DNA from: Lachnospiraceae bacterium | GTDB taxonomy: Bacteria; Bacillota; Clostridia; Lachnospirales; Lachnospiraceae | DNA length: 44,614 nucleotides | Direction of reading: 5' to 3' | Assembly: GCA_014799405.1 (NCBI GenBank) | Contig: JAAVIA010000055.1 | Coordinates: forward strand, 1 to 44,614 | Shown: positions 833-44,614 of the stretch, piece by piece | Numbering within the stretch: the first letter of the stretch is position 1 | Layout: the number at the start of each line of letters is the position of its first letter | Program-made: the position numbers and the translations under genes | Notes under the pieces: model-generated | What the model saw: only the letters and a program-made list of their open reading frames with translations | The model's database searches: none | Told to the model about the DNA's origin: nothing

Positions 833-940
833 AAAAAGAGTTGTCGCAGTAAGAATTTAAGACACATAGTTGTTTACCCAGGACAATCCCTCTTTTATTT
901 TATATGTGTCTTAAATTCTTACTGCAACAGCCCCCTTTTT
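833..940. repeat. Long perfect inverted repeat; terminator-like or MITE-like element
   Basis: A 23-bp arm at 846-868 is perfectly complementary to 903-925, with a 34-base loop. The outer flanks (GTTGTC / AACAGC) extend the pairing imperfectly. Read on the minus strand it follows the lipoprotein gene and ends in a T-rich run, so it can act as a rho-independent terminator. The stem is unusually long for a terminator. About 75 bp of the left arm and loop are clearly similar to sequence at 44414-44488, so this is a dispersed repeat and not just a local hairpin. Confidence 0.8.
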
Positions 941-5334: not shown

Positions 5335-6573
5335 ATGGATTCAAATAACATCGACACAGGAAAATTAAGAATAAATGTCACAGGACCTGAGGGTATTGTT
5401 CCCATTAGTGATGCAAGTATTCAAATTGCAAATACAGGAACCCCAAATACAGTTTTGGAAACGATTAATACAGATACAAATGGTAACACCGAAACCATAG
5501 ACCTTGCGGCACCTCCCATAGAATACAGCATGGAGCCTACGGACAATCAGCCTTACTCTGAATACAACATAAGGATAAATGCTCCCGGCTATTCGGAGCA
5601 ATTAATAACTGGTGTTCAGATTTTTTCCACACAGGTAGGTATACAGAATATAAGGCTCGTCCCAAATCCAAATGAACAGGACACATATGACCCTACCGTA
5701 ATCGGAGGCCATACCTTATGGGAATTTTACCCACCAAAAATTGCTGAAGCGGAAATCAAGCCTTTAAACGAGTCGGGGGAAATTGTTTTAAGACAGGTTG
5801 TTGTTCCCGAAACAATAGTCGTACATAACGGGACACCAAGCGATTCAACTGCAAAGGATTTTTATGTTCCATATTTGGATTATATAAAAAATGTGGCAAG
5901 CTGTGAGATATACTCCACATGGCCTGAGGCAACCATACAGGCAAATGTGCTCGCCATAATGTCATTTACACTAAATAGGGTTTACACCGAGTGGTACAGG
6001 AACAAGGGCTATAATTTTACAATAACCTCATCAACAGCCTATGACCACAAATGGATGGAAGGAAAAACAATATACGAAAGCATTGACCGAGTTGTTGACA
6101 GCCTTTACAACAATTTTCTTTCACGCCCCAACATTAAACAGCCTATTCTCACCCAATATTGTGATGGCAAACGGGTGTCCTGTCCAAACTGGATGACACA
6201 GTGGGGTTCAAAGGCGCTTGGAGATGACGGATATAAGGCAATAGATATTTTAAGATATTATTACGGCAGCGATATGTATATAAACTCCGCAGAAATTATA
6301 TCAGGCATACCTGCATCCTATCCGGGATACAATCTCACAAACGGTTCCTCCGGCGAGGCAGTCATTCAGATACAGGAGCAGTTAAACCGTATTGCACAGG
6401 TTTACAGTGCAATTCCCACCATAAATGTAGATGGAATATACGGCCCTGCCACTGCTAATGCAGTAAAAACGTTCCAAAAAGTATTTAACCTGCCACAGTC
6501 AGGAATCGTTGATTATTCTACATGGTATAAAATATCACAGATATACGTCGGTGTGACAAAAATTGGAAGCTAA
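5335..6573 (+). CDS. SpoIID-like / peptidoglycan-binding domain protein
   Basis: The 412-residue protein has three parts. Residues 9-108 look like a carboxypeptidase-regulatory or Ig-like beta domain. Residues about 160-320 resemble the SpoIID family, with conserved-looking VPYLDYIKNVASCEIYSTWP followed by a helix and a Thr/Ser/Tyr-rich stretch. Residues 336-403 are a clear PG_binding_1 domain (GSSGEAVIQIQEQLN, VDGIYGPATANAVKTFQ). SpoIID proteins cleave denuded glycan strands during engulfment, so cell-wall or spore-cortex work is the best guess. No signal peptide or membrane segment is visible, which is odd for a wall enzyme. The gene stands alone on the plus strand and ends in a terminator shared with ptsI. 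Confidence 0.72.
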   Translation: MDSNNIDTGKLRINVTGPEGIVPISDASIQIANTGTPNTVLETINTDTNGNTETIDLAAPPIEYSMEPTDNQPYSEYNIRINAPGYSEQLITGVQIFSTQVGIQNIRLVPNPNEQDTYDPTVIGGHTLWEFYPPKIAEAEIKPLNESGEIVLRQVVVPETIVVHNGTPSDSTAKDFYVPYLDYIKNVASCEIYSTWPEATIQANVLAIMSFTLNRVYTEWYRNKGYNFTITSSTAYDHKWMEGKTIYESIDRVVDSLYNNFLSRPNIKQPILTQYCDGKRVSCPNWMTQWGSKALGDDGYKAIDILRYYYGSDMYINSAEIISGIPASYPGYNLTNGSSGEAVIQIQEQLNRIAQVYSAIPTINVDGIYGPATANAVKTFQKVFNLPQSGIVDYSTWYKISQIYVGVTKIGS

Positions 6574-6603
6574 GCGACATAAATAACAAGAAAAAATAAT
6601 TTT

Positions 6604-6656
6604 TATGGGGCTGCCGCACTATGGATTTACCCGTATACGGCACGCCCCGTTTTTAT
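6604..6656. terminator. Bidirectional terminator between the SpoIID-like gene and ptsI
   Basis: GGGGCTGCCG pairs with CGGCACGCCCC (one bulged base) around a loop holding GGATTTAC, followed by a T-run on the plus strand and an A-run on the other side. It lies between two convergent genes. Its arm and loop resemble the repeat family at 833-940, 22574-22628 and 44414-44488. Confidence 0.8.
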
Positions 6657-6670
6657 AATATATGGGGTAT

Positions 6671-8305
6671 CTATTTTGCAAGGTCAGTATTTCTTACCTG
6701 ATTTCTAACCTTAAGCACAAAGCCCGGGGATACGGAAAGCTCGTCAATTCCCATCCTTAAGAACCGCTCCGTCAGCGATGTATCGGCTGCAAGCTCTCCA
6801 CAAATTCCTATCCATGCACCATTTTTATGGGCATTATCTGCTGCCATCTGAATCAATCTAAGTATCGCCTCGTGGTGCGTGTCACAGAAGCTTTCAATAT
6901 TCGGATTTTGCCTGTCACATGCAAGTGTATACTGTGTCAGGTCATTTGTTCCCACACTGAAGAAATCAACCATAGGCGCAAGCAAATCACTTATAACTGC
7001 TGCGGCAGGTGTCTCTATCATAATGCCAAGTTCAACATTTTCCGAATATTCAAGACCTTCCTCCTTAAGCTCCATCTTTACCTCATCACATACGGCCTTT
7101 ATTTTTTCAACCTCCGAAACGCTTGTAATCATAGGAAACATTATACCAAGATTGCCGTAAACAGAGGCACGATAAAGTGCCCTTAGCTGCGTTTTAAATA
7201 TATCGGGTCTTGTGAGACATATTCTTATTGCCCGATACCCAAGTGCAGGATTTTCCTCCTTGTCAAGGTTGAAATAATCAACCTGCTTATCTGCACCGAT
7301 ATCAAGTGTTCTTATAATAACCTTCTTGCCGGCCATGCTCTCAAGAACCTTTCTGTATGCAATAAGCTGCTGTTCCTCCGTAGGATAATCACTATTTTCA
7401 AGATAAAGAAACTCACTTCTGAAAAGCCCTATACCGCCTGCATCATTTAAAAGCACAGCCCCGATGTTGTCCACACCGCCTATATTAGCAAATATTTTTA
7501 TTTTCGTACCGTCTATGGTGACATTTTCTTTGCCCTTAAGCTCAAGAAGGAGCTTTTTCTTCTCATTATCCTCAGCCTGCTTTCTCTCCATAGCATCAAG
7601 CGTTTCATCATCAGGATTAACATATATCTCTCCCGTAAATCCATCAACTATGGCAAGCTCTCCGTCCTTTATATCATTAAGAAAATCCTCACCCACACCT
7701 ATAATTGCAGGAATATTCATGTTTCTTGCCAGTATTGCCGTGTGGGAATTGGAAGAACCATAAGCCGTTACAAACGCAAGAACATTATCCTTGTCAAGAG
7801 CTACAGTTTCACTTGGTGCAAGGTCATCGGCGCACACAATCATTTTACCGGTGACACCGTTCATGTTCGTGCTGTCAGAAGACAAATTCTTAATTATCCT
7901 GTTTGATATATCCTTCACGTCCGCAGACCTTGCCTGCATATAAGCATCGTCCATGGCAGCAAACATCTGGGCAAAATTATCCGAGGTTAGTGCCACAGCA
8001 TACTCTGCATTTACAAGCTGTGTTTCAATTATGCTTGAAATAGATTCGTTGTAATCCTCATCCTCAAGCATCATCATGTGGATTTCAAATATCTGGGCAT
8101 TTGTCTCTCCAACCTCTCTAAGCGCCTTCTCATATATATCTGAAAGCTCCTGATTGGAAATTTCCTTTGCCCTTTCCACTCTCTTTTTTTCTGCCTCCAC
8201 ATCCTCTATACGGGTACGTTTTACCGAAAGCTCCTGCCTCTTATATACCGATATTTTTCCTATGGCAACTGCTCCGTATACTCCTTTACCTTTATATTTG
8301 TTCAT
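6671..8305 (-). CDS. ptsI: Phosphoenolpyruvate-protein phosphotransferase (PTS enzyme I)
   Basis: Enzyme I takes phosphate from PEP and passes it to HPr, the first step of the cytoplasmic PTS relay. The 544-residue protein has the HPr-binding/phosphohistidine N-terminal half with active-site motif SNSHTAILARNMNIPAIIG and the PEP-binding TIM barrel (GIGLFRSEFLY, FFSVGTNDLTQYTLACDRQ, GICGELA). Length is typical. The start is the ATG at 8305, eight bases after AAGGGG; the track start at 8311 is a TTG. It is the last gene of the fructose operon, directly after ptsH. Confidence 0.97.
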   Translation of the reverse strand: MNKYKGKGVYGAVAIGKISVYKRQELSVKRTRIEDVEAEKKRVERAKEISNQELSDIYEKALREVGETNAQIFEIHMMMLEDEDYNESISSIIETQLVNAEYAVALTSDNFAQMFAAMDDAYMQARSADVKDISNRIIKNLSSDSTNMNGVTGKMIVCADDLAPSETVALDKDNVLAFVTAYGSSNSHTAILARNMNIPAIIGVGEDFLNDIKDGELAIVDGFTGEIYVNPDDETLDAMERKQAEDNEKKKLLLELKGKENVTIDGTKIKIFANIGGVDNIGAVLLNDAGGIGLFRSEFLYLENSDYPTEEQQLIAYRKVLESMAGKKVIIRTLDIGADKQVDYFNLDKEENPALGYRAIRICLTRPDIFKTQLRALYRASVYGNLGIMFPMITSVSEVEKIKAVCDEVKMELKEEGLEYSENVELGIMIETPAAAVISDLLAPMVDFFSVGTNDLTQYTLACDRQNPNIESFCDTHHEAILRLIQMAADNAHKNGAWIGICGELAADTSLTERFLRMGIDELSVSPGFVLKVRNQVRNTDLAK

Positions 8306-8331
8306 AAGCAAAACCCCTTTTCACTTTACAG

Positions 8332-16290: not shown

Positions 16291-16343
16291 AATGGGCTGA
16301 CGCAGTTAAAATTTTTCATAAACTGTGGCAGCCCATTTTTTTA
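16291..16343. terminator. Bidirectional terminator between the Crh-like and GNAT genes
   Basis: ATGGGCTGACGCAGTT pairs with AACTGTGGCAGCCCAT with two internal mismatches, around a 13-base loop, followed by TTTTTTT on the plus strand. It separates convergent genes and belongs to the GGGCTGNCGCA arm family seen repeatedly in this window. Confidence 0.88.
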
Positions 16344-20753: not shown

Positions 20754-21545
20754 TTATGCGTGCATTTTATATTCAATTCTAAGCTTATCTGCAATCAACG
20801 CTATAAATTCAGAATTCGTCGGTTTGCCTTTTCCGGCACTTACTGTATATCCAAACATTTCCTCAATCACTTCTATTTTTCCCCTGCTCCATGCCACCTC
20901 AATTGCATGTCGTATAGCCCGCTCAACACTGCTTGATGTTGTCTTGTATTTTTTCGCTATACTCGGATATAAAAGCTTTGTAATAAAATTCAGCATATTC
21001 ATATCATTTATTGCCATGATAATTCCTTCCCGAATATACTGATAGCCCTTTATATGTGCAGGTATTCCAATCTCACGTATAATCTCCGTAACATCATTTT
21101 CAATGGAAGATGCCTGCCGACTCACATTTGCCCTCGCATCAATCTCCACAAGCTCCTCATCCTTTGATAAGCCTGCAATCTGTATAATTCTCTTTGTCAA
21201 TATTTCAGGGTTACACGGCTTCATAATGTAATAATCCGCTCCAAGATTAAATGCCATGCTTATTATACGTGGTGAACCCACGTTAGTAATAAAAATAATG
21301 CTTGTCCCTGAAAATTCTTCATTTGCACGTAGCTGCTCAACAACCTCAAGCCCGTCAACATTTGCAATAAATACATCAATCAGAAGAACATCCGGTCTGC
21401 ATTCCGAAACAATGTCATAAACAGCTGCCCCATCATCTGTTGTACTTACAATATCAATAGTATCTTCGCTTTGAACCTGTAATTGCTTTGATAGGATTTC
21501 ATAGCCTGCGTCTGCAATTACAACCCGAACTTTTTGTTCAGTCAT
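20754..21545 (-). CDS. spo0A: Sporulation response regulator Spo0A
   Basis: Spo0A is the phosphorelay end point that starts sporulation. The 263-residue protein has a receiver domain with phospho-acceptor Asp57 ([13 protein letters not shown]), switch Thr87 and Lys109 (YYIMKP). The C-terminal domain is unmistakable ([49 protein letters not shown]). Two deviations are visible: the acidic pair is DA (Asp12-Ala13) instead of DD, and the recognition-helix motif reads [12 protein letters not shown] where Bacillus has [12 protein letters not shown]. Start at the ATG at 21545, after AAAGGGGAG. Its own promoter and flanking 0A boxes suggest autoregulation. A paralogue lies immediately upstream. Confidence 0.95.
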
Positions 21546-21567
21546 AACAATCTCCCCTTTAGCTATT

Positions 21568-21596
21568 CTCCATATCAATCATATAACCATATGGAG
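21568..21596 (-). other. Leader hairpin of spo0A
   Basis: CTCCATAT and ATATGGAG form a perfect 8-bp stem with a 13-base loop between the promoter and ribosome site of spo0A. It could affect translation or mRNA stability; no known riboswitch shape is seen. Confidence 0.5.
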
Positions 21597-21671: not shown

Positions 21672-22460
21672 CTAGGCGCTTTTCATTTTACTGTCAAGTC
21701 TTATCTTATCGGCAATAAGCGCTATAAACTCCGAATTTGTAGGTTTTAATTTACCCTGATTCATTGTATAACCAAACAATTCATAAATTGTATCTGTTTT
21801 TCCCCGCCCCCATGCAACCTCAATTGCATGTCTTATTGCCCTTTCAACTCTTGATGAGGTTGTCCCATACTCCTTAGCAATCGAGGGATACAACTGCTTT
21901 GTTATGGAATTCAAAACATCCATGTCACGTACCGCCATGATAATTGAGCTTCTTAAATACTGATAGCCCTTTATATGTGCAGGAACACCTATCTCATGTA
22001 TTATCTCGGTAACCTTCCGCTCCAAATTACTCTCGTAAATTTCATCTGAGCTCTCACATATGTGAATGCCTTTTTGTTTTGATTTGGACGTATTTATTAT
22101 TTCCTGAAACAAATCAATACCATCTGCCGCTTCGTCAATTATGTTTATGTATATATTATTTAATTTTCCCTTGTATATTTTTTCCAAAAATTTTATTTGG
22201 CTCATATTTGCTTTTACAAGAAACTTAAACGGACAATCCTCCCTTTTATCTATCTCATCCATTATGGCAATACCATCTAAATTAGGCAGCAATAAATCGA
22301 TAATTACAATATCAGGATTATATTTTAAAATTCCGTCCATTCCTTCCTGTCCATCCGTGAAACAGCCGCAAACATAAAAGTCTTTCTTTGTCTCAAGCAT
22401 GACCCTTAATTCATTAGCACTTCTTAAATCATGCTTGATAACAAGCACCTTTATTCTCAT
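21672..22460 (-). CDS. Second Spo0A-family protein with degenerate receiver
   Basis: The 262-residue protein has an almost perfect Spo0A DNA-binding domain ([52 protein letters not shown]). Its receiver domain is altered. The acidic pair is replaced by Lys9-His10, the switch Thr by Lys in FKFLVKAN, and the conserved Lys-Pro near position 105 is absent. The acceptor Asp55 ([13 protein letters not shown]) remains. It is therefore probably a pseudo-receiver form that cannot switch normally. It is encoded directly upstream of spo0A, same strand, with its own promoter. It could act as a phosphorylation-independent partner, competitor or heterodimer of Spo0A. Confidence 0.9.
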
Positions 22461-22573: not shown

Positions 22574-22628
22574 TCAAAAAAATAAGGGACCGTCACACGC
22601 AGGTAAATCCTTAGTGCAACAGACCCGC
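22574..22628 (-). terminator. Terminator of xerD
   Basis: On the minus strand GGGTCTGTTGCAC pairs with GTGTGACGGTCCC (several G-U pairs), followed by TTATTTTTTT. The loop contains AAGGATTTAC, shared with the repeat family at 6604-6656 and 44414-44488. Confidence 0.8.
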
Positions 22629-22632
22629 TATT

Positions 22633-43154: not shown

Positions 43155-44411
43155 ATGAAAACAGTTGCCATTATTGCAGAGTACAACCCGTTTCACAACG
43201 GACACAGCTATCAGTTTTCTGAAATCAGGGAAAACCTGAACCCTGATTATATAATTTCCCTCATGGGTGGAAATTTTCTCCAGCGTGGACATGCTGCCAT
43301 GTGGAGCAAGTACAAAAGGGCAAAAATTGCATGCCAAAACGGAATTGACGCTGTGCTTGAGCTTCCTTTTCCATATGCAACGGGAAGTGCACGTGATTTT
43401 GCAATGGGTGCAGTCTCAATCCTTAATAAATTGGGTAGCATTGATTATATTGCATTCGGAGCCGAGACGTTTAACATAACTTTATTTACCCATATTGCTG
43501 ATATTTTGGGAAATGAGCCTGAAGAATTTAAGGTATTACTTAAGCAGCTTCTTTCTGAAGGCATTTCATACCCGGCTGCAAGGCAAAGGGCGCTTGCGCA
43601 ATACCTCAAGGATGACACGATTACCGAGGTCATGTCGCTTCCAAATAATATTTTGGCAATCGAATATCTAAGGGCGCTTAAAGCCACAAATTCAAAAATA
43701 GCTCCTGTTTTAATAAAACGAACGGCCAATAATTATCACGATGAAACCATAACCGGTGAAATCAGCTCTGCAACCGCAATAAGAAAACTAATCAAACAGC
43801 CCGATTTTAATTATGATATGTACGATAACCTTTCAGAGAACATATCGGATGTAACTCTGGATACATTGAAAAAGCTTCACGGCGTGTCTGCCCCTGTTTT
43901 TACATATGATTTGGCTCCTTTTATTCAACAGTGTCTTCTCTTGGAAACGCCAAACGACAATATATGTGACCTTACGAAAGAAATGCAGAACAAGCTTGGA
44001 AAGCTTGAGCCTGCCTCCTCATATGACGAGATAATCAGCTTCCTTAAATCAAAGGAAATCACTTCATCAAGAATTAGCAGGGTTCTTATCCACCTTCTTT
44101 TAAATTATACGGAAAAAGACCGTGATACCTTTGCATCGGGGGAGTATGGCTATTATGCCAACCTTTTGGCTTTCAGAGAGGCTTCATCTGAGATTTTAAA
44201 ATGTATGGCTTCTGCCGGTGAAATCCCGGTAATTACAAAAAAGGCGGACTTTCACAGCAGTCTATTAAAGTATTCCCATATTGACAGTATTGCGGCAAAA
44301 CGTATGTGGGAGCTTGATACAAAGGCAACAAGGCTTTATAACTGTATGGTGTATAACAGATATGGAACAAGGCTTCCAAATGACTTTAACGTAAACCTGC
44401 CCATAGTTTAA
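43155..44411 (+). CDS. tmcAL: tRNA(Met) cytidine acetate ligase TmcAL
   Basis: TmcAL (YlbM in Bacillus) activates acetate with ATP and makes N4-acetylcytidine at the wobble base of elongator tRNA-Met. The 418-residue protein has the nucleotidyltransferase motif IIAEYNPFHNGHSYQ (T/HxGH type), GGNFLQRGHAAMWSKYKRA and ISSATAIRKLIK. Length is typical. AAGGAG precedes the ATG. It is divergent from recA and followed by a copy of the dispersed repeat. Confidence 0.94.
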   Translation: MKTVAIIAEYNPFHNGHSYQFSEIRENLNPDYIISLMGGNFLQRGHAAMWSKYKRAKIACQNGIDAVLELPFPYATGSARDFAMGAVSILNKLGSIDYIAFGAETFNITLFTHIADILGNEPEEFKVLLKQLLSEGISYPAARQRALAQYLKDDTITEVMSLPNNILAIEYLRALKATNSKIAPVLIKRTANNYHDETITGEISSATAIRKLIKQPDFNYDMYDNLSENISDVTLDTLKKLHGVSAPVFTYDLAPFIQQCLLLETPNDNICDLTKEMQNKLGKLEPASSYDEIISFLKSKEITSSRISRVLIHLLLNYTEKDRDTFASGEYGYYANLLAFREASSEILKCMASAGEIPVITKKADFHSSLLKYSHIDSIAAKRMWELDTKATRLYNCMVYNRYGTRLPNDFNVNLPIV

Positions 44412-44413
44412 TT

Positions 44414-44558
44414 AAAGGGAGTTGTCGCACTTAGGATTTAAGGCACATAGTTGTTTCCCCATGACAAGCCCTCTTTCATTTTGTATTTTTACAAACTGTG
44501 CTATCTAAGCATATTGAGATATTTTGCTTTTCTATTATGGCTTGTGGAGCACTCCCTT
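44414..44558. repeat. Diverged copy of the dispersed repeat after tmcAL
   Basis: The first 75 bases are clearly similar to 833-905 (both read GTTGTCGCA, then GATTTAAGGCACATAGTTGTTT or a close variant, then CCCTCTTT). In this copy the right arm is degraded. The outer ends AAGGGAGT (44415-44422) and ACTCCCTT (44551-44558) are still perfect inverted copies about 144 bp apart. It may terminate tmcAL. The remaining bases to the window end show no gene. Confidence 0.6.
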
Positions 44559-44614
44559 GAACTCGTACACAGCCATGTTGCCAATCAGTATGTGTATTTT
44601 GAATTTGACAACAA

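Follow-up and report, generated by a model that had tools for sequence, protein, structure and literature searches.

The hairpin at 833–940 of the window, the 44,614-nt stretch of DNA analysed here, is best explained (with a probability of about 0.6) as a short internal-deletion derivative of an apparently non-coding, MITE-like family of palindromic repeats, lodged in a terminator slot. In the mechanism that we propose, the family would have been dispersed by some transposition machinery that acted on the ends common to its members, the hairpin with its T run would terminate transcription arriving from either side, and palindrome-prone replication, by slippage or template switching, would shorten copies and re-match their arms. 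Bidirectional termination, which we infer, would thus allow copies to survive in terminator slots. The initial annotation had suggested a MITE-like element that doubles as a terminator; its dispersed state, terminator placement and spread are supported by our results, and strict MITE status is not established. As no target-site duplication was detected above chance and no known partner was found, we use the term “MITE-like palindromic repeat family” and not MITE, and consider that the family was probably mobile at some time.

The perfect inverted repeat was verified exactly as first described, with 23-bp arms around a 34-base loop: the left arm, GCAGTAAGAATTTAAGACACATA, occupies 846–868 and pairs with its complement in the right arm at 903–925 (both annotated on the plus strand), and the loop spans 869–902 (neither the loop nor the whole element being assigned a strand). 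Longer imperfect arms of 37 nt each (832–868 and 903–939) are 86% complementary, and the outer right end GCAACAGCCCCCTTTTT (924–940, plus strand) represents the shared end motif, as the complement of AAAAAGGGGGCTGTTGC, with a T run. As RNA, the hairpin folds at -47 kcal/mol on the plus strand and -55 kcal/mol on the minus strand (z about -13), a stability reached by none of 200 shuffles, and a T run ends it on both strands. Across the window, 15 inverted-repeat pairs of 14-mers (spacer of at most 75) were observed versus 0 in 50 shuffles, a count of overlapping words in which many of the 15 pairs stem from the 833–940 hairpin alone. A known structured RNA was rejected as the identity of the repeat, as no Rfam family matched above its gathering score.

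The reported recurrence of the left arm and loop 43 kb away is real (44414–44486, 85% identity over 73 nt, ungapped), but the second place turned out to be a truncated long copy and not a second short element. The similarity runs past 44486 to the contig end, and 44414–44614 (plus strand) comprises the first ~200 nt (~197) of a full-length type-A element of ~525 bp, cut by the contig end; this copy starts 2–3 nt past the stop codon of the open reading frame (ORF) at 43155–44411. Full-length copies are present in the same genome (G000, C1:58283–58804) and in the congeneric genomes G001, G015 and G048. The parent form is near-palindromic along its entire length, folds as RNA at about -264 to -274 kcal/mol, and has no ORF longer than 72 aa and no transposase gene. 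The window copy joins ~74 nt from the left end of this form to ~37 nt from its right end, and the two parts overlap at an ATTTTrTAT microhomology, so that the copy resembles the product of an internal deletion at short homology. The window is the entire contig C55 of the 2.80-Mb draft genome, in 61 contigs, of an uncultured bacterium, and contigs C14, C15 and C25 likewise terminate within a type-A repeat; with several contig ends falling within type-A copies, such repeats evidently break assemblies.

At least four subfamilies, type A among them, share the end AAAAGGGGCTGTYGCAnTAAG. The end motif GGCTGTYGCANTAAGRATTT, allowing up to 3 mismatches, gave 94 matches in the genome of origin versus 0 in the reversed control, and these matches, together with the BLAST copies in that genome, answer the genome-wide count called for in the initial annotation: this is not a two-copy repeat. 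The hairpins at end-motif loci, read in selected stretches surrounding the hits, range from 33 to 590 bp and combine one outer end with several unrelated interiors, namely A (that of the window hairpin), C (~137 bp), D (~50 bp) and X-containing forms (~158, 212 and ~380 bp). Terminal inverted repeats common to the copies, a dispersed multi-copy state and empty sites in relatives, all features of MITEs, were observed. More diverged hairpins also occur in the window: one with the related stem GGGGCTGCCGCACTA at 6603–6652, between the convergent ORFs 5335–6573 (plus) and 6671–8311 (minus); a terminator-like one with the related stem GGGCTGACGCAGTTA/AACTGTGGCAGCCC and a T run at 16292–16340; a weaker one with the related right end CCTTAGTGCAACAGACCC at 22585–22632 (no strand being assigned to these three); and a minimal hairpin, TAAGGGCTGCTGCGACAGCCCTTA, carrying the core stem motif of the family, at 2841–2864 on the minus strand. 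These suggest that recent copies grade continuously into ordinary terminators.

The position of the elements agrees with the proposed role in termination. Among 35 elements checked for placement, 3 run into a predicted ORF, in at least 1 case owing to over-long end pairing; the remaining 32 lie between convergent (18) or tandem (12) gene pairs or have a gene call on one side only (2), and none lies between divergent genes, while only 3 of the 38 neighbouring ORF pairs in the window are convergent. The distance from element to stop codon is mostly 4–40 nt, and the window element lies 13 nt past the stop codon of the ORF at 946–1518, downstream of rimM and trmD. A stable hairpin followed by a T run downstream of genes is the structure of an intrinsic terminator. 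After-gene placement, strong folding and T runs therefore bear out the terminator position claimed at the outset, and, judging from placement and folding, the palindromic repeats probably end transcription.

A comparison of empty and filled sites, as suggested in the initial annotation, showed that at orthologous positions relatives may carry the element, lack it or hold a different one. At site L088, G015 carries a full-length copy (~530 bp), G001 a 157-bp deletion form and G048 a ~60-bp remnant, and G000 and G042 are empty; the G001 form shares the private variants of the G015 copy and is a second deletion derivative. At the site of the 833–940 hairpin, G042 holds a C-type hairpin and G001 an unrelated short terminator, and at the site of the 44414 copy G042 has a short hairpin with matching ends and G001 is empty. 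Different interiors also occupy one orthologous site at L072 (A versus C) and at L083/L164 (C versus X). In G015, the ortholog of 790–945 (L117) contains the G001-type terminator plus an unrelated hairpin insertion of ~160 bp. As a separate observation, this insertion has the ends TAAGTAATTGCGAAACT/AGTTTCGCAATTGCCTA and the direct repeat TTATAAAGT on both sides and is absent from G001; it reads as a clean insertion of another repeat family with a 9-bp duplication.

Clear type A was detected in 4 of 37 congeneric genomes, with weak partial matches in two more, and the repeat had no match in 16 genomes from other families of the order. In small stretches from other congeners, the stem motif was of low density. 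Phage or plasmid carriage was rejected, as the repeat matched no phage or plasmid and the end pattern no viral contig. Full-length copies are 91–97% identical within genomes and 89–95% between species, whereas around trmD and recA the identity between G048 and the window is only ~70% and ~81%, respectively. That copies are so much more alike across species than genes implies, at the level of sequence, that type A spread recently, and this contrast is the best evidence for such spread. Part of the distribution, represented by sites common to several species, is vertical or a hotspot effect. In the literature on Clostridia or Lachnospiraceae, no description of such repeats was found.

The target-site duplication and the transposase with matching ends, which had been proposed as checks on a MITE-like origin, were not found. 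A comparison of the flanks of copies with shuffled flanks revealed no duplication above chance, and a duplication of 0–2 bp would be compatible with these data. A TA at equal distance from both ends was seen in 5 elements versus 3.4 expected and was not enriched. In the draft assemblies, a search for three transposase families did not turn up a gene with matching ends: IS630 (DDE_3, PF13358) was not found in 37 genomes, Y1/RAYT (PF01797) in none of 13 genomes searched, including the 4 carriers, and IS1182 (DDE_Tnp_1_6, PF13751) not in the genome of origin, the sole one searched. An IS630-like TA duplication, hinted at by site L088, was rejected given the lack of TA enrichment and of DDE_3 in the 37 genomes, and RAYT/IS200 mobilisation was rejected because no Y1 transposase was found in carriers. 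As the genomes compared are draft assemblies with contigs broken inside these repeats, and repeated genes are often missing from such assemblies, the absence of a transposase is not proof.

The X-containing forms revealed a nested organization. X is centred within its host hairpin, with flanks of 37/36, 65/62 and 35/37 nt, and the ~380-bp forms (L157, L158 and L159) consist of palindrome X within a reversed X within the common outer stem; in G042, an X-like sequence stands alone without outer ends. At L161:5047–5300 (G000:C1, about 31.35–31.60 kb), the repeat end GGCTGTTGCAGTAAGGATTTGAG is followed by further sequence and then by an X unit, and the sequence after GGCTGTTGCAGTAAGGATTTGAG presumably resembles an IS3/IS150-type end plus the first codons of its gene.

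The two arms of individual copies are also better matched than arms taken from different copies. Over the first 28 nt of type-A arms, agreement is 91.6% within a copy versus 85.7% across copies, a value reached in 0 of 5000 shuffles by a statistic that ignores the kinship of copies, and 19 matched double departures from the consensus were observed versus 6.9 coincident ones expected. Other types behaved similarly (86.8% within versus 77.6% across copies), and in copy L099 three private changes are each found in the left and the right arm. Hairpin arms can be matched in this way when replication switches template from one arm to the other, as has been proposed for RNA genes (PMC8794818); the match within copies may alternatively reflect selection for RNA pairing, the present data being compatible with either.

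Several other histories have to be weighed against an internal-deletion derivative of a mobile palindromic family. The outer stem with the common end might be an old, lineage-typical terminator, in the loops of which mobile interiors (A, C and X) insert and thereby build concentric palindromes. The centring of X in the outer stem and within another X, the X-like sequence without outer ends in G042, and the similar outer ends around different interiors at the 833–940 site, L072 and L083/L164 would all be expected in that case, as would a minimal GGAGCTGTCGCGACAGCCCC hairpin at one such site in G042, although deletion of the centre of a longer palindrome also yields minimal hairpins. However, the outer ends occur at ~100 places and are more alike than independent terminators should be, close relatives lack them entirely at some sites, and type A was never seen without them; we regard this history as doubtful, though deserving consideration. 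A variant of the nesting scenario, in which palindromes home to the centre of terminator hairpins, nest concentrically and keep terminating while template switching re-matches their arms, thus forming a class of mobile elements that target a DNA hairpin and not a sequence and leave no duplication, appears quite unlikely.

The end architecture, non-coding interior and copy number would also suit a classical MITE whose transposase belongs to a family outside those searched or is missing from the assemblies (e.g. IS1182 in other genomes, IS256, IS3 or IS110) and whose duplication is very short or decayed. The empty/filled pair at L088 is compatible with a TA duplication, but TA sites are scarcely above expectation, longer duplications do not exceed chance, and IS630 and IS1182 are absent from the genomes in which they were sought, which leaves this origin rather unlikely. 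Far less probable still is that these are ordinary intrinsic terminators, alike through selection and base composition and never mobile. Placement, T runs and the continuous gradation down to minimal hairpins that retain the core are in keeping with that idea, and it may be true of those hairpins that are shortest and have diverged most; for type A it is refuted by the full-length alignments, as 89–97% identity over ~525 bp at unrelated sites, and in species with far more diverged genes, makes convergence impossible.

The preferred mobile palindromic family recalls several known systems. RUP of Streptococcus pneumoniae and Correia/NEMIS, which are bacterial MITEs, are similarly short, non-coding elements with terminal inverted repeats and many intergenic copies, and have TA termini and duplications, RUP with a proposed IS630 partner (PMC2229807); in the family described here, in contrast, duplications do not exceed chance, IS630 was not found, and the parent, of ~525 bp, is palindromic throughout. 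YPAL/RU-2 of Yersinia, a palindromic repeat of ~168 bp that targets sites spanning or next to dyad symmetry (PMC2229807), is alike by description and differs in making duplications of 3–26 bp. The stems also resemble intrinsic (rho-independent) terminators in having a stable stem and a T run directly after stop codons, but their length greatly exceeds what is required, and here the hairpin in its entirety is a repeat with dispersed copies. REP/BIME/REPIN elements are likewise extragenic palindromes of high copy number. REPs are 20–40 bp long, carry a GTAG or CGTC tag and are linked to Y1 (RAYT) transposases, whereas the hairpins here measure 33–590 bp, nearly all above 40 bp, share the end AAAAGGGGCTGTYGCA and reside in carriers without a Y1 transposase. 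REP dimers inserted within longer palindromes provide a precedent for nesting (PMC3733652), yet the present family is a variant, set apart by the size of its parent and by the way in which several subfamilies form centred nests.

These repeats are naturally replicated long palindromes that permit a comparison of copies with orthologous empty sites, with deletion derivatives and with nested forms. The family thereby allows tests of the survival and spread of long palindromes in bacteria, of terminators as safe landing places for passengers, and of template switching, as proposed for RNA genes (PMC8794818), as the keeper of arm matching in hairpins.

In addition to the palindromic repeats, the window contains two stretches, 20763–21092 and 21684–22013, that are 73–88% identical and 921 bp apart; they fall within the neighbouring ORFs 20754–21578 and 21672–22460, which are tandem paralogs.
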